Positions 57,010 to 64,000 of a stretch of DNA of 64,000 nucleotides are shown piece after piece. The first letter of the stretch is position 1. Each line of letters starts with the position of its first letter. A program made the translations under genes and the position numbers. The notes beneath the pieces are model-generated. The model saw only the letters and a program-made list of their open reading frames with translations, was not told the DNA's origin and did not search any database. The stretch is taken from the NCBI RefSeq assembly GCF_001443045.1, contig NZ_LKPJ01000024.1, positions 1-64,000 on the forward strand, in the 5' to 3' direction. The stretch is from Burkholderia ambifaria. Its GTDB lineage: Bacteria; Pseudomonadota; Gammaproteobacteria; Burkholderiales; Burkholderiaceae.

Positions 57010-60000
57010 TTACTTCGCGACGACGACCGGAATGCCCTTCAGCATCCCCGCGCCCTTCATCTCGTCGAGCGCGTGCTGCACGGCCGCGCTCGTCGCCGCG
57101 TCGATGCCGAGTTGCAGCGCGAGCTCGCGTTCCGCACGCTTCACGCCCGCGAGGTTGCGCACCTTCACGTGACCGAAGCCGCGAACGCGGGCGTGCAGGT
57201 CGGCCAGCTGCGTGACCTGCGCGGCATTGCCGGCGGTCGTCGCCGCGAGCGCGCGCGTGAGCGTCGTCTCGTAGTCGTCCGCGAGCGCGCGCTCCATCCT
57301 GCGCTCGGCCGTGCGGCCGAACGGATCGAGCCACGTGCCGCGCAGGCTGCGCACGCGCGCGAGCGTGCCGAGCACCGGCCACATCCACTGGCCGAACACG
57401 CGCTTCTTCGGCGCGCTGCCATCGCTGCCAGCCTTCGCGACCGTCGGCGGCGCAAGGTTGAACTTCACGCGATAGTCCTGCCCCGGCACGCCTTCGAACT
57501 GCGCTTCGAGCGCCGTGCGGAACGCGCCGTCCGCATACAGCCGCGCCACCTCGTATTCGTCCTTCACCGCGAGCAGCCGGTAGAACGTCGTCGCGACCGC
57601 GCGTGTCAGCGCATCGTCGCCCTTCGCGCGCGCCGCGTTCACCAGCGCCCGGTAGCGCTCGACGTAGCGCGTGCCGCCGTATGCGTCGAGCCGCGTTTCG
57701 CGATCGGCGACGAGTTCGGCGAGCGTCTGCGGCGCGACCGGAGCGGCCGCCGTATGGCGTGCGTTCCACAATGCATCGAGGCCCGCCGCGTCGCCGGCCG
57801 CCATCCGGCCGATCGCGAACGCGAGCTTGTTCATCGGCACCGCGACGTTGTTCAGCTCGATCGCGCGCATCATCGCGGCGTGCGACACCGGCACGAGGCC
57901 AAGCTGCCACGCGTAGCCGAGCATCAGGATGTTCGCGCCGATCGAGTCGCCGAGGAATTTCGCGGCGAGCGCCTGCGCGTCGCAGCTCGACAGGTAGCCG
58001 TCGCCGGCCGCGTGATGCATCTTCTCGAGCAGCGCATCCGCGTGCAGGTCCGCGTCGGGGTTCTGCACGAACGACGCGTTCGGGATCCGGTGCGTATTGA
58101 CGACGATGCGCGTACGCTCGTGACGCACCGTCTGCAGTGCCTCGGCGCTGGCGCCGACGACCATGTCGCACGCGAGCAGCACGTCGGCCTGCTGCGTGTC
58201 GATGCGCACCTGGTTCAGCCACCGGTCGCTCGACGCGATCCGCACGAACGACAGCACCGAGCCGCCCTTCTGCGCAAAGCCCATGAAGTCGAGCACCGAC
58301 GCACTCTTGCCTTCGAGGTGCGCGGCCATGCTGATCAGCGCGCCAACCGTTACGACGCCCGTGCCACCGACACCCGTCACGAGCATGTCGTACGGCGCCG
58401 CGTCGAGATGCGTCGCCGGCACCGGCAGCGCGTCGACGCGCACGGCGAGCGCCGCCTCGTCGAATGCCGCGCCCGCGGCCTTCTTCAGCGCCGCGCCTTC
58501 GACCGTCACGAAGCTCGGGCAGAAGCCGTTCACGCACGAGTAGTCCTTGTTGCACGACGACTGGTCGATGCGGCGCTTGCGGCCGAGCGGCGTTTCGAGC
58601 GGCTCGACCGACAGGCAGTTCGACTGCACGCCGCAGTCGCCACAGCCTTCGCACACCGCGTCGTTGATGAACAGGCGCTTGTCCGGGTCGGGGAACTCGC
58701 CCTTCTTGCGGCGGCGGCGCTTCTCGGCCGCACAGGTCTGGTCGTAGATCAGCACGGTGACACCCGGCGTCTCGCGCAGCTCGCGCTGCACCGTGTCGAG
58801 TTCGCTGCGGTGATGGAACGTCGTGCCGGGCGGGAACTGCCCGTGATGGCCTTCGTACTTCTCCGGTTCGTCGGACACCACGACGAAGCGCGACACGCCT
58901 TCCGCCTCGACCTGCCGCGCGATCTGCGGCACCGAGATGCTGCCGTCGACCGGCTGGCCGCCCGTCATCGCGACCGCATCGTTGTAGAGGATCTTGTACG
59001 TGATGTTCGTCTTCGCGGCGACCGCCTGGCGGATCGCGAGGATGCCCGAGTGGAAGTAGGTGCCGTCGCCGAGGTTCTGGAACACGTGCTTCGTGTTGGT
59101 GAACATCGCGTGCGCGGCCCAATCGACGCCCTCGCCGCCCATCTGGATCAGGCCCGTCGTATCGCGCTCCATCCACGACGCCATGAAGTGGCAGCCGATG
59201 CCGGCCTGCGCGATCGAGCCTTCCGGCACCTTCGTCGACGTGTTGTGCGGGCAGCCCGAGCAGAAGTACGGCGTGCGCTTCACCGCGTCGGCTTCGTTCG
59301 ACAGGATTTGCGGCGCGACGAGATCGACGACGCGTTCGCGGCGATCGAGTGCCGGCTTGTGCCGCGCAAGCCATTCGGCGAACACCGGCAGGATCCGCGA
59401 CGGGCGCAGTTCGCCGAGCTCGGACAGCAGGCACGCGCCCGCCGCATCGTGCTTGCCGAGCACGCGCGGGCGCGCGCCGTCCGCGCGGTTGTACAGGTAG
59501 TCCTTGATCTGCTGCTCGATGACGGGGCCCTTCTCCTCGATCACGAGCACTTCCACCAGCCCGTCGACGAAGGTCTCGATGCGTGTCATCTCGAGCGGGT
59601 ACGACAGGCCGACCTTGTAGATCCGTATGCCGGCCGCATCGAGATCGGCGACCGTCAGGTCGAGACGGCGCAGCGCTTCCATCAGGTCCAGGTGCGCCTT
59701 GCCGCAGGTGACGATCCCGACGTTCGCCTGCGCGCTCGGCGCGATCCACTTGTCGATGCTGTTGGTGCGCGCGAAATGGCGCACCGCGTCGAGCTTCGCG
59801 GCGAGGCGCGCCTCGATCGTGAGGCTCGGCAGGTCGGGCCAGCGATTGTGCAGGCCGCCCGCCGGCGGCGTGAAACCTGCCGGCGCCGGCCATTGCGTCT
59901 GCAGCGCGTCGAGGTCGACGGTCGAGCCCGACTCGACGGTCTCCGAGATCGCCTTGAAGCCGACCCATGCGCCCGAGTAGCGCGACAGCGCCCAGCCGTA

Positions 60001-60582
60001 CAGGCCGAACTCGAGCATGTCCGCGATGTTCGACGGGTTCACGACCGGCATGTGCCACGCGATCATCGCGAAGTCGCTCTGATGCGGCATCGAAGACGAC
60101 ACGCAGCCATGGTCGTCGCCCGCTACCACCAGCACGCCGCCGTGCGGCGACGAACCGTACGCGTTGCCGTGCTTCAGCGCGTCGCCGGCGCGGTCGACGC
60201 CGGGACCCTTGCCGTACCACATCGCGTACACGCCATCGACGGTGCGTTCGGGGTCGGCTTCCACGCGCTGCGTGCCGAGCACCGCGGTGCCGCCGAGTTC
60301 CTCGTTGATCGCGGGCAGGAAGCGCACGCTGCTGCCGTCGAGCAGTTTCTTCGCCTTCCACAGCTGCTGGTCGACCATGCCGAGCGGCGAGCCGCGGTAG
60401 CCGCTGACGAAGCCGGCGGTGTTGAGCCCCTGCGCGGTGTCGGACGCGCGCTGCATCAGCAGCAGGCGGACCAGCGCCTGCGTGCCGGTCAGGAAGATCC
60501 GGCCGCGCGTGGCGGTCAGGTTGTCGGTCAGGCGGTAGTCGGATAGAGCGGGCGTGCCGTCGACGGGCAGGCGGGCGGTCAT
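57010..60582 (-). CDS. Indolepyruvate ferredoxin oxidoreductase (fused alpha-beta-gamma type)
   Basis: 1190 residues. TPP-dependent oxidoreductase that decarboxylates aryl or branched 2-oxo acids to acyl-CoA with ferredoxin reduction. N-terminal pyrimidine-binding part (SGYRGSPLGMVDQQLW, about 60-75), C-terminal-type TPP domain (FCSGCPHNTSTKVPEGS, GIGCHFMASWMERDTTGLIQMGGEG), cysteine cluster (CEGCGDCGVQSNC and SCNKDYSCVNGFCPS), then a gamma-like domain (GVGGTGVVTVGALISMAA) and a C-terminal helical part. The fused enzyme is usual in beta-proteobacteria. Confidence 0.93.
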   Translation of the reverse strand: MTARLPVDGTPALSDYRLTDNLTATRGRIFLTGTQALVRLLLMQRASDTAQGLNTAGFVSGYRGSPLGMVDQQLWKAKKLLDGSSVRFLPAINEELGGTAVLGTQRVEADPERTVDGVYAMWYGKGPGVDRAGDALKHGNAYGSSPHGGVLVVAGDDHGCVSSSMPHQSDFAMIAWHMPVVNPSNIADMLEFGLYGWALSRYSGAWVGFKAISETVESGSTVDLDALQTQWPAPAGFTPPAGGLHNRWPDLPSLTIEARLAAKLDAVRHFARTNSIDKWIAPSAQANVGIVTCGKAHLDLMEALRRLDLTVADLDAAGIRIYKVGLSYPLEMTRIETFVDGLVEVLVIEEKGPVIEQQIKDYLYNRADGARPRVLGKHDAAGACLLSELGELRPSRILPVFAEWLARHKPALDRRERVVDLVAPQILSNEADAVKRTPYFCSGCPHNTSTKVPEGSIAQAGIGCHFMASWMERDTTGLIQMGGEGVDWAAHAMFTNTKHVFQNLGDGTYFHSGILAIRQAVAAKTNITYKILYNDAVAMTGGQPVDGSISVPQIARQVEAEGVSRFVVVSDEPEKYEGHHGQFPPGTTFHHRSELDTVQRELRETPGVTVLIYDQTCAAEKRRRRKKGEFPDPDKRLFINDAVCEGCGDCGVQSNCLSVEPLETPLGRKRRIDQSSCNKDYSCVNGFCPSFVTVEGAALKKAAGAAFDEAALAVRVDALPVPATHLDAAPYDMLVTGVGGTGVVTVGALISMAAHLEGKSASVLDFMGFAQKGGSVLSFVRIASSDRWLNQVRIDTQQADVLLACDMVVGASAEALQTVRHERTRIVVNTHRIPNASFVQNPDADLHADALLEKMHHAAGDGYLSSCDAQALAAKFLGDSIGANILMLGYAWQLGLVPVSHAAMMRAIELNNVAVPMNKLAFAIGRMAAGDAAGLDALWNARHTAAAPVAPQTLAELVADRETRLDAYGGTRYVERYRALVNAARAKGDDALTRAVATTFYRLLAVKDEYEVARLYADGAFRTALEAQFEGVPGQDYRVKFNLAPPTVAKAGSDGSAPKKRVFGQWMWPVLGTLARVRSLRGTWLDPFGRTAERRMERALADDYETTLTRALAATTAGNAAQVTQLADLHARVRGFGHVKVRNLAGVKRAERELALQLGIDAATSAAVQHALDEMKGAGMLKGIPVVVAK

Positions 60583-60920: not shown

Positions 60921-61817
60921 TCACCTTTCGGATGCACAGCGTTGGGATTGGTCGCGAGCGCGGGATGTCCACAATGCCGGGGGCTGCGGGCCGAGCCTGC
61001 AGGTGCGCTCACCGTTCGATTGCACAGGGTTTCGAGTTGCGTCGGGCGCCGGATGTCCACACTGCAATCGGTCCGCAGTTCCAGCGGATTCCGACATTCA
61101 CCATCGAAATCCACAGCGCGAAGAGTCGGTGTCGGCAGAAGATGTCCACACCGTCGGATCCCTGCCTCGTCGATGCGACGTGCGCACTCACCTTTCCGAT
61201 GCACAGGATTGCAAGTCGATCGGGCGGCACGATATCCACATCTCGGTCGCCCCGCCTCGCAACGTTCCGGCGCGCTGGCACGGGTGTGGATATCGCCACC
61301 CGCGGACACGCGAAACCCTGTGAGTTTCGACGGTGAGCATCGGCACGCGGCCAAACAAGGACACCGATTCGGGTGTGGACAGATCGATCAGCGACGACTC
61401 GAAACGCTGTGAATTTCGATGGTGAGCGACGGCACGACGATCAAGCGAGGGCGTCGATTCGGGGGCAAATCCCCCGACCGACGACGACGCAAAACACTGT
61501 GAATGCCAACGGTGAGCAACGGCAAGACGATCGAGCGAGGGCATCGATTCGGATGTGGACAGCTCGATCCATGGCCACTCGAAACGCTGTGAAATTCGAC
61601 GGTGAGCGTGGGCGTGATATTGCCCGAAGGCGCCGATTCGGCGTGAACAGCGGCGCCCGCAACCCCTCGGCGACCCGCGCATCCTGATTCGCGCAGACGC
61701 GGCCGATCCTCATGCACGCGCCCTCACCGCTGGAATACACAGCACGTCGATTGGTTTCGTTGACCGGATATCCACATCGGAGCGTGGGCTCGAATGGTAC
61801 GCGCAATCGCGAGTGCG

Positions 61818-61830
61818 GTTAGAATGCGCG
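61818..61830 (+). promoter_or_regulatory. Promoter-like GTTAGAATGCGCG, copy 1
   Basis: TAGAAT at 61820-61825 resembles the -10 boxes of neighbouring genes. It lies 72 bp before a block. An identical string occurs exactly 178 bp further on. Confidence 0.4.
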
Positions 61831-61995
61831 ACCCTCGAAACCGTGTCGACGATCGGAAACGGGCGCGCGAGCCGACACACGGGCCGAGCGGCCGCCGACG
61901 CTCACCATTGAAATACACAGCGATTCGAGTGAATTCGGCGACAAGATATCCACACCGCGATACGCTTGCGGCTCTATCGCCGATTCGCGCATGCC

Positions 61996-62008
61996 GTTAG
62001 AATGCGCG
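61996..62008 (+). promoter_or_regulatory. Promoter-like GTTAGAATGCGCG, copy 2
   Basis: Second copy, 178 bp from the first, again 72 bp before a block (62080). No clear -35 at proper spacing. Confidence 0.4.
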
Positions 62009-62421
62009 GCGCCGCGAATCGTGCACGATGCCCGGAAGTCCGCACCAGGCAAGCCTCACGGGCAATCGGCCGCCGACGCTCACCCTTCGAAAGCACAGCA
62101 TTTTTCGTCGTTGGGAGTGGCGGTTGTCCACACGCTGCATCGCGCATGCGGCCGCATGTGGTCGCTCTCACCGGTGAAAGGCACAGCGTGTCGAGTGATT
62201 TGGGGCCGGGATATCCACAACCGGCGCCGCGCGGAAGTTCGCCGCCGGCGCATCGGCAACGCCGGCTCAAGCACCTGCCCGCGACCGGTGTCGAATGCCG
62301 GGAAACCCCGTGGATTCAGCCTCCGGCCGCACACTCACCGTTCGCATACACAGTGTTTCGAGTGGGCGGACGGGCCGGTTGTCCACATTCACTCCGCCAC
62401 GGGAGACACCCGCAAGCACCG

Positions 62422-62979
62422 TCACTCGGCAATCGACCGGATGATCCGCGCCGGGTTTCCGCCAACCAGCGTATCCGGCGGAACGTCGTGTATCACGACG
62501 GAACCCGCGCCGATGACCGCGTTCTCGCCGACCGTCACGCCACCGATGATCGTCGCGCCCGCGCCGATCCACACATTGCTCCCGATCGCAATCGGCCGGC
62601 CGACGACGAAGTCGCGTCGGCGGGACGGCTCGACCGGATGGCCCGACGTGATGAGGCTGACGTTCGGCCCGATCATGACGTCATCGCCAATGTCGAGGCC
62701 GCCGAGGTCATGGAACGTGCAGTTCTGGTTGACGAACACGTTGCGGCCGATCCGCGTATCGGCGCCGCCCGTCGCATAGAACGGCGGGATCAGCAGGAAG
62801 CCGTCGTCCATCGGCCTGCCGACCAGTTCTCCGAACAATGCCCGGACTTCGTCCGCGTCGTCGAACGTCAGACGGTTGAGCCGGGCGATGATTGCCATCG
62901 CCCGCTTGAGCTCGGCGCGCATCGCGGCCGATTCCGGCGTGCGCCGGGGAATGATCGTGGTGCGATCGTCGTGCGCCAT
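62422..62979 (-). CDS. Hexapeptide-repeat O-acetyltransferase (maltose/nodulation acetyltransferase type)
   Basis: 185 residues from ATG 62979 (MAHDDRTT). Left-handed beta-helix hexapeptide repeats in the C-terminal two thirds (IGRNVFVNQNCTFHDLGGLDIGDDVMIGPNVSLITSGHP, then VWIGAGATIIGGVTVGENAVIGAGSVV). ITSGHP carries the catalytic His of acetyl-CoA-dependent sugar acetyltransferases. The N-terminal helical MAA/LacA-type region is present (AELKRAMAIIARLNRLTFDDADEVRALFGEL). Acceptor unknown. A long frame upstream to 63135 is not used. Confidence 0.9.
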   Translation of the reverse strand: MAHDDRTTIIPRRTPESAAMRAELKRAMAIIARLNRLTFDDADEVRALFGELVGRPMDDGFLLIPPFYATGGADTRIGRNVFVNQNCTFHDLGGLDIGDDVMIGPNVSLITSGHPVEPSRRRDFVVGRPIAIGSNVWIGAGATIIGGVTVGENAVIGAGSVVIHDVPPDTLVGGNPARIIRSIAE

Positions 62980-63457
62980 TCGTTGCTGTTCTCCGTGTGC
63001 GATCGAACCGGCATGCAACGCATGACGGCACCGCCCGATTCGCCGCATGCGAATCGCATGGCCTTGAATTCGATCATTCGGGCGACCCGCGCGGGCGATC
63101 CGATTTTTCGCGTTTCGCGGGCTGCCGACGATCATCGTCCGGGCTCGTGCGGCTGGCCGCCGACACTGCTGCTGCGAAGCCGACAGGACAGTGTAGCCGC
63201 GCTCACTTCAGCCGAGCATAGGCACTTCAATTAATAACTAGTTAATCTATAACTAGTTTAATCATGAATTACCGTCGCATCTGGCTTTGCGGGAAATTCT
63301 CCGACCATTTCCATCCTGCCGAACGCACGCGTCCCGCCGCGCCGCCATCAAGCCAACTATCCACCGCTTTCGCCGCGCGCCCCTGTCCGAACCGCTTGCG
63401 CTCGGGTACGCTTGAGCATCCACCGAACCGACACGCACACCCATACGCGGAGGCGCG
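62980..63457. other. 478-bp divergent intergenic region, acetyltransferase / GST
   Basis: Holds a very AT-rich patch (63228-63270) with two AACTAGTT palindromes and otherwise high-GC sequence. The GST ribosome binding site GGAGG is at 63449. No gene seen. Confidence 0.5.
63236..63258. promoter_or_regulatory. Double AACTAGTT palindrome (candidate operator)
   Basis: AACTAGTT at 63236-63243 and 63251-63258, 15 bp centre to centre, each within a TAACTAGTT(T/A)A context. CTAG-centred dyads of this type are bound by several small repressors, MarR- and TrpR-like sites among them. The regulator here is unknown. Confidence 0.5.
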
Positions 63458-64000
63458 ATGAAGCTCTACTACTGGCCGAAAACCCGGGCATTCCGGGCAC
63501 TGTGGATGCTGGAGGAAATCGGCGCCGTCTACGAGCTCGTGCCGATCGACCTGCGTTCGCACGAACAGGGCAGCGACGCGTTCGTCCAGGTCAATCCGAT
63601 GGCCAAGCTGCCCGCACTCGACGACGGCAGCGAACCGTTCGCCGAATCCGGCGCCGTGCTGCTCTATCTCGCCGATCGCTGCCCGGGTGCCCGCCTCGGT
63701 ATCGCACCCGACGATCCGCTTCGCGGCCGCTTCCTGCAATGGATGTTCTTCACGCCCACCTGCCTCGAGCCAGCGATGGCCGAGAAATTCACCGGCGCGT
63801 CGGGCAATCCGGTCGCCTTCGGCTGGGGCAACATCACGCGCGTGCAGCGAGCGCTCGCGCAAACGCTCGCCCACAGCCGCTGGCTCGTCGGCGACCGCTT
63901 CACCGCGGCCGACCTGCTGCTCGCCAGCACGCTGAAGATCGCGTTCGACGCGCACCTGCTGCCGCACGAAGGCGTGCTCGGCGACTATGTCGCGCGCGCC
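63458..64000 (+). CDS. Glutathione S-transferase, 5' part (cut by window edge)
   Basis: 181 codons are in the window, from ATG 63458 (MKLYYWPKTRAFRALWML) after GGAGG. Thioredoxin-like N-domain with the GSH-binding stretch NPMAKLPALDDGSEPFAESGAVLLYLAD, then helical C-domain (RWLVGDRFTAADLLLASTLKIAF). No stop before the right edge. An AACTAGTT dyad lies 200 bp upstream. Confidence 0.9.
   Translation, partial: MKLYYWPKTRAFRALWMLEEIGAVYELVPIDLRSHEQGSDAFVQVNPMAKLPALDDGSEPFAESGAVLLYLADRCPGARLGIAPDDPLRGRFLQWMFFTPTCLEPAMAEKFTGASGNPVAFGWGNITRVQRALAQTLAHSRWLVGDRFTAADLLLASTLKIAFDAHLLPHEGVLGDYVARA

Follow-up and report, generated by a model that had tools for sequence, protein, structure and literature searches.

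In Escherichia coli, the datA locus gathers DnaA into oligomers soon after initiation, as described in the available parts of two publications (PMC5742627, PMC4585315), and in Bacillus subtilis and Streptomyces coelicolor, clusters of DnaA boxes, cited in the same texts, repress untimely initiation. Initiation timing in multi-chromosome bacteria is known in detail for few lineages, and the accessible portion of PMC13342612 treats the discovery of timers other than crtS as a task still open. Du et al. (PMC4948915), in the sections available, left the chromosome-1 origin uncertain and named a second DnaA-box cluster; those sections do not mention the array that we describe here. Searches of the literature on Burkholderia and on datA-like clusters, to the extent that its text was accessible, likewise turned up no description of it.

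The DNA analyzed here, referred to as the window, is a 64-kb stretch from Burkholderia ambifaria located on contig C19 of an 8.1-Mb genome (C, G, and L numbers are our labels for contigs, genomes, and loci). It contains 13 noncoding units of 52–53 bp each, nine facing right and four facing left, which together span positions 60921–62387; a coding reading of the array found no support. A preliminary description of the window had reported thirteen blocks in these orientations, and they were confirmed using a pattern search and a position weight matrix (PWM). The exact pattern from that description has six matches in the 64-kb window, all within the array, against an expectation of zero from 100 dinucleotide-preserving shuffles. 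Using PWM columns 1–30 at ≥8 bits, we identified 15 matches in the window, compared with 0, 1, and 1 matches in three shuffled windows. The array accounts for 13 of the 15, at ≥33 bits, and the two outside it score 10.7 and 8.6 bits; as the PWM was derived from the array units themselves, the weight lies on the shuffle controls and not on the scores. The motifs were indeed found at fixed positions. The last of them, given earlier as GATRTCCACA, is better written as WTRTCCACA, with the variants ATATCCACA, ATGTCCACA, TTGTCCACA, and CTGTCCACA in the window, and four units (5, 6, 8, and 12) are 52 bp long.

Units 1 to 4 face right. Unit 1 (60921–60973) reads TCACC-N9-CACAG-...-ATGTCCACA and was identified as an exact pattern match and by the PWM. 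Units 2 (61009–61061) and 3 (61098–61150) also carry ATGTCCACA, and unit 4 (61188–61240) carries ATATCCACA at 61232–61240; all three were recovered by the pattern, the PWM, and a box scan. Units 5 to 8 face left and were recovered by the PWM and the box scan. Unit 5 (61285–61336) has ATATCCACA at 61285–61293, units 6 (61374–61425) and 8 (61554–61605) have CTGTCCACA, and unit 7 (61463–61515) is without the last motif, its second DnaA-like box having been lost. The remaining units face right and were all recovered by the PWM and the box scan: units 9 (61724–61776; ATATCCACA at 61768) and 10 (61902–61954; ATATCCACA at 61946) also match the pattern, units 11 (62080–62132; TTGTCCACA at 62124) and 13 (62335–62387; TTGTCCACA at 62379) match it with ≤3 mismatches, and unit 12 (62168–62219) has ATATCCACA at 62211. 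Same-strand start-to-start steps measure 88, 89, 90, 89, 90, 90, 178, 178, 88, and 167 bp, in agreement with the earlier report of 88–90 bp or about double that, plus one step of 167 bp; the steps at orientation changes are 148 and 119 bp. The 178-bp higher-order repeat reported at the same time is real (repeat families D1 and D7). Family D7 includes a 46-nt direct repeat at 61800–61845 and 61978–62023, with this 178-bp spacing and with a promoter-like GTTAGAATGCG string in inter-unit gaps.

Aligning 237 units, taken from the window and from 21 further loci, gives the consensus ACRCTCACCGTTGAAATNCACAGCGTTTCGAGTGG...GGATATCCACACCG. One base occurs in ≥93% of these units at columns 1–5, 15–19, 26, and 29, and the inter-unit stretch carries little information in the same alignment. 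Each unit has two elements resembling DnaA boxes, AAWTNCACAG and WTRTCCACA, approximately 35 bp apart, and also keeps TCACC and TTTCGAGT parts. The first element is free at its fifth position (column 14, 0.13 bits), as in TTATNCACA. The most invariant parts of the unit, TCACC and CGAGT, are not DnaA boxes. Seven of the window's 10 near-DnaA boxes (≤1 mismatch to TTATCCACA) fall within the array, where 7 of 13 units have a one-mismatch box and none has an exact TTATCCACA. The CCACA box is absent from 54 of the 237 units; among the 183 units bearing one, 97 have ATATCCACA and 10 have TTATCCACA. Over 393 kb of genome G017, the counterpart of this array (the main array) is the densest cluster of near-DnaA boxes, with six in 1.5 kb, followed by origin-region block A (four) and then by block B and a smaller second array (three each).

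The spacing between units falls into classes. Among 22 main arrays with 290 units, same-strand steps cluster at 86–91, 155–157, 165–169, 177–181, 189–191, 200, and 212 bp, with peaks at 89, 156, 167, 178, and 190 bp, that is, in increments of approximately 11 bp. A scan of periods from 9 to 13 bp, leaving out the 85–92 bp class, gave a best period of 11.05 bp in the 22 main arrays (Rayleigh 51.6, R 0.76, n = 90, orthologous spacings not being independent). Spacings of 56, 71, 72, 75, 81, 82, 93, 98, and 101 bp fit these steps poorly, and second arrays prefer a period of 11.85 bp over 11.05 bp (R 0.62, n = 37). Judged by eye, distances between inverted neighbors also gather around 110, 120, and 132 bp on the one hand and 148, 160, and 171 bp on the other, with others, such as 142 and 259 bp, deviating. 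The helical repeat of DNA in vivo is near 11 bp. Because steps of ~11 bp amount to one helical turn, they point to protein bound on the DNA, and we conclude with high confidence that this is a protein-binding array operating at the DNA level. Helical phasing in a nucleoprotein complex is seldom recorded in natural sequence as clearly as in these 11-bp steps.

Rates of change point the same way. In alignments of seven arrays, mismatch was lower in motif columns than in spacers in 21 of 21 pairs (ratio 0.39–0.55). Between the window and locus L199, mismatches occur at 24 of 325 positions in motif columns and 6 of 117 in the second box, compared with 54 of 247 in unconserved columns inside the units and 159 of 960 in spacers; unconserved columns inside the unit behave as spacer. 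This test is partly circular, the motif columns having been chosen from the same sequences, and the inner columns serve as its control. Together, the 11-bp steps and the slower change of motifs support selection on the layout at the DNA level, as the preliminary description had proposed. Among the three functions that it offered, an array of binding sites survives, and small-RNA cassettes and a mobile repeat do not, for reasons given below. The resemblance to DnaA boxes, the link to the origin region, and the taxonomic restriction are new here.

The array is clade-specific and is kept at one location on chromosome 1. Its DNA was matched in 17 of 19 genomes of the genus, the window's own genome included; G006 and G014 gave no match, and direct inspection of the locus in these two genomes found no array. 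A sequence-only model built from 15 units matched 43 of 65 genomes of the genus at E ≤ 1e-12. Seven more genomes (G005, G007, G008, G010, G061, G092, and G142) miss this threshold, yet the array is present in them by PWM, giving at least 50 of 65; G006 and G014 are among the other 15. In a draw of 150 genomes from the family, the model matched 12 at E ≤ 1e-8, all belonging to the genus of the window, one of the 25 represented, under strict filters that could miss weak relatives. A single match at 1.4e-4 was identified in G028, which belongs to a different family. We also used a protein search with named records; among the best 80 of 474 loci, an array of at least two units lies upstream of the adjacent oxidoreductase gene in 25, all titled Burkholderia and including B. 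cenocepacia, B. anthina, B. ubonensis, B. stagnalis, B. dolosa, B. lata, B. territorii, and B. metallica. By these names, we take the array-positive species to be the Burkholderia cepacia complex and its near kin. Within the same 80 records, the array is absent from B. guangdongensis (L225), from Burkholderia sp. lig30 (L224), and from all 52 loci L226–L277, which comprise Paraburkholderia, Trinickia, and some records titled Burkholderia sp.; locus L220 is too short to judge. No similar DNA was found in plasmid and phage records.

The genes around the array are largely conserved. To its left, an open reading frame on the reverse strand (57010–60582), presumably encoding an indolepyruvate ferredoxin oxidoreductase-like protein, starts 338 bp from unit 1; of 16 main-array loci, 14 have this gene next to the array, and the other two (L060 and L061) end at a contig edge. 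To its right, a reverse-strand open reading frame at 62422–62979, which we take to encode a maltose O-acetyltransferase-like protein, is found in 13 of the 16 loci (not in L057, L058, and L059). A forward-strand gene at 63460–64000, cut by the window end and presumed to be glutathione S-transferase-like, is present in all 16. Upstream of this last gene, at 63229–63258, lies a tandem pair of A+T-rich 15-mers, AATTAATAACTAGTT and a close variant of it, possibly a regulator site. The main array is on the dnaA-bearing contig in G001, G008, G011, G016, and G017, 234–255 kb upstream of dnaA in these five genomes if the contigs are assumed to be complete circles. Nine to 20 modules were counted in 21 of the 22 main arrays, and one to seven units in second arrays (16 loci). 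In the window's own genome, the pattern with ≤3 mismatches has 10 matches on two contigs, in the main array and in a small array on contig C12, compared with two matches for a reversed-pattern control. A 36-nt blastn match was also found on the genome's contig C25 (L015).

The second arrays place these units near an origin-like region. Block A, a conserved, A+T-richer, origin-like stretch rich in DnaA boxes, lies ~0.8–3 kb from the small array and was identified in all second-array loci except L196 and L198 (14 of 16). Block B of G017 has exact DnaA boxes at 84.8, 84.95, and 87.8 kb, and the GC-skew minimum in the 393 kb examined is at +87.6 kb from dnaA. The two blocks are collinear, running from GTTATCCAC to TGGATAAC, another GTTATCCAC, and TTGTTAACT..ACTACGTATNTATAC, and they lie ~48–58 kb apart in G008, G016, and G017; examples of these blocks are L079:7463–7990, L014:8166–8693 (the own genome's contig C12, ~133.2–133.7 kb), and L110:4601–5300. 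Together they look like a duplicated or multipartite origin. In G006, an A-like stretch was seen by eye at 21.6 kb (L155), where blastn had found none, and a reverse copy of TTGTTAACT..ACTACGTATNTATAC lies at 87.8 kb; the idea that block A is clade-specific was dropped on account of the A-like stretch. Block A is ~268–275 kb from the main array in G011, G016, and G017; in G001 the distance is ~545 kb, and in G008 it is 888 kb.

Modules like those of the array recur in this region. A matrix for CACAG..CGAGT combined with a canonical TTATCCACA has five matches at ≥24 bits outside the main array of G017: three in the second array, one in origin block B, and one in what we take, from its open reading frames, to be the gidA-parAB-atp region. 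At this threshold, none of eight first-order random sequences of G017 length had a match, against 21 real matches, most of which are in the main array, the matrix's own training set. In G017 the block B module scores 20.6 bits, and in both G008 and G016 it has 11.5 bits, compared with a median CACAG..CGAGT score of 20.8 bits (5th percentile, 8.8) for the 237 array units. In the block B alignment of G006 there is no such module, and another CACAG-box pair scores 18.2 bits. At the edge of block A, 10 of 13 loci have a CACAG and box module, the box being TTATCCACA in nine of them and TTGTCCACA in the tenth; G016, G158, and G003 have an exact TCACC-N9-CACAG there. The CACAG..CGAGT part of the block A module scores 3.4–6.5 bits in eight loci and 15.5–16.4 bits in two. 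Separately, CACAG..CTTATC(C/A) modules occur at L111:11459, 11551, and 17481 (111–117 kb in G017), near parS-like sequences and among genes that are presumably gidA-parAB-like.

Our best reading, to which we give slightly less than an even chance, is a clade-specific candidate DnaA-binding or titration array, putatively datA-like in its action. That DnaA is the main binder is suggested by the motifs with moderate confidence, and from there we infer a titration or timing effect and a role in replication control. The composite modules, set at near-whole helical turns, would mostly present on the same face of the DNA, where DnaA would bind them and assemble cooperatively; the TCACC and TTTCGAGT parts probably serve a partner or the assembly of DnaA itself. 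Duplication of the locus after initiation would then provide a sink or an ATP-hydrolysis platform, lowering free ATP-DnaA and limiting or timing re-initiation, as at E. coli datA and at the Bacillus and Streptomyces clusters. The unit itself may be a DnaA-binding module akin to that of the chromosome-1 origin region, multiplied by the clade into a distant phased array. Several observations speak against the DnaA reading: the boxes are imperfect, no IHF site was found, TCACC and CGAGT are left unexplained, the block A modules are weak, and the distance to the origin region varies; because the block A modules were rescored as weak, we lowered our estimate slightly, from even to just short of it. 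A phased, clade-specific array that resembles chromosome-1 origin modules is a concrete, deletable timing candidate, and it may be a previously undescribed control site for replication timing in multi-chromosome bacteria.

The evidence for DnaA would read differently if another DNA-binding protein, such as a nucleoid- or chromosome-organizing protein or an origin accessory factor, bound the units and the DnaA-box resemblance were secondary. This is rather unlikely in our judgment; it draws on the fact that neither CTCACC nor CGAGT, the best-conserved parts, is a DnaA box, that the box variants lean to ATATCCACA, and that the phasing would fit any cooperative complex, but related composites recur at canonical or one-off DnaA boxes of the origin region. 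The parS pattern is also missing from the main array of G017: GTTTCACGTGAAAC, the chromosomal parS sequence, was identified at 111 and 113 kb only in the 393 kb examined. Transcriptional control of the adjacent oxidoreductase gene would account for the array lying directly upstream in all 14 main-array loci with the gene inside the stretch. This seems very improbable, however, given that further arrays of these units occur elsewhere, near the origin-like block, and that the gene is present but the array absent in Paraburkholderia, Trinickia, and some Burkholderia.

An RNA function, whether as small-RNA cassettes or otherwise, might be suspected from the regularity of the units and from promoter-like TAGAAT strings seen by eye at 178-bp spacing. 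We hold it to be extremely unlikely: covariation across the 237 units (~85 effective sequences) was confined to columns 44–53, likely a result of the 52/53-bp length shift and not of pairing, fold z-scores of eight units against shuffles range from –1.6 to 1.9, and no Rfam family reached its gathering score, a lax threshold giving two sub-threshold matches to unrelated families. A neutral or mobile repeat amplified locally is just as hard to credit. Local duplications do occur, as near-identical neighboring units at 190 bp (L048) and 156 bp (L055), but matches at E ≤ 0.1 in six array-bearing genomes form two clusters plus one weak intragenic match per genome, motifs change more slowly than spacers, and the array is kept at one place. 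A dispersed REP- or MITE-like repeat was rejected on this distribution, the window's own genome having its 10 pattern matches on two contigs and the five other genomes two clusters plus the one intragenic match. That third site, ~0.9–1.1 Mb from dnaA in six genomes (L086–L091), resembles the unit over 43 nt where a gene that we presume to be aminotransferase-like begins, and it was taken as a chance match in coding DNA. As the preliminary description had stated, the array is not CRISPR, judging from the repeat layout of degenerate copies, inverted blocks, and varied spacing.

A link to chromosome 2 is possible because CTCACC-N-TT corresponds to the right half of the chromosome-2 iteron. Units would in that case bind chromosome-2 RepA, with DnaA, and duplication of the chromosome-1 array would license chromosome-2 replication in the manner of crtS; we consider this improbable. 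The unit's invariant CTCACC(G)TT agrees with CCCGAAAANNCTCACCTTT (consensus from the available text of PMC4948915; 73 iterons, six loci) over the right half, with a score reached by none of 500 column shuffles, and the whole-iteron score, although poor, lies above all 300 shuffles. Section 14 of PMC4948915, within the text available, regards such a link as worth exploring, and the accessible part of PMC13342612 reports contacts of ori2 in B. cepacia with a large part of chromosome 1. On the other side, the other iteron half is unmatched (135 of 500 shuffles reach its score), the half-site boundary was picked after the fact, and the unit scores –15 bits against 32 bits for a true iteron, on which grounds a full-iteron reading of the unit (CCCGAAAANNCTCACC) was rejected. 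Chromosome-2 iterons were identified in all nine genomes searched, array-bearing or not. A cross-chromosome timer, in which DnaA at the two boxes and RepA at the half-iteron CTCACC would meet on the phased chromosome-1 array, whose duplication by the fork would then license or tune initiation on chromosome 2, is a comparably doubtful proposal; if true, the crtS principle would have been independently invented in the cepacia complex. A second small iteron cluster, ~133–157 kb from the main one, was also observed (G011:C3:1847669–1851201, G001:C2:2772081–2775586, G016:C3:143497–147054, and G000:C56:168923–172448) and is perhaps a RepA titration locus.

Compared with the chromosome-2 iterons of Burkholderia, which are RepA sites, the unit shares CTCACC followed by N-TT and lacks the CCCGAAAA half. 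Like the crtS of Vibrio cholerae, as described in the available part of PMC6090056, the array is noncoding, lies on chromosome 1 of a bacterium with several chromosomes, and has a putative DnaA box. The chromosome-1 location, on the dnaA contig in five genomes, and the DnaA-box-like element are common to both; crtS is one short site read by RctB, whereas the array is long, and presence with every related chromosome-2 replicon does not hold for the array, as G006 has 28 iteron matches but no array.

The array differs from datA in mostly having 9–20 modules, set at ~89 bp and in 11-bp steps, in its additional invariant motifs, and in its mostly imperfect boxes. An IHF site, with the consensus WATCAANNNNTTR, was found with ≤1 mismatch at no position in the 22 main arrays (40,128 bases), compared with 2, 3, and 4 in random controls. 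The conserved distance to oriC that characterizes datA was not seen with respect to origin-like block A in five genomes; the distance to dnaA is 234–255 kb throughout. Like datA, based on the available portions of PMC4585315 and PMC5742627, the array is noncoding and clusters DnaA-box-like sites on the main chromosome, with sites kept and spacers free, and by analogy an array of up to 20 modules could act as datA does. It is a regular array of composite modules, a layout that the same portions of these papers (PMC4585315, PMC5742627) do not describe for the B. subtilis and S. coelicolor clusters.
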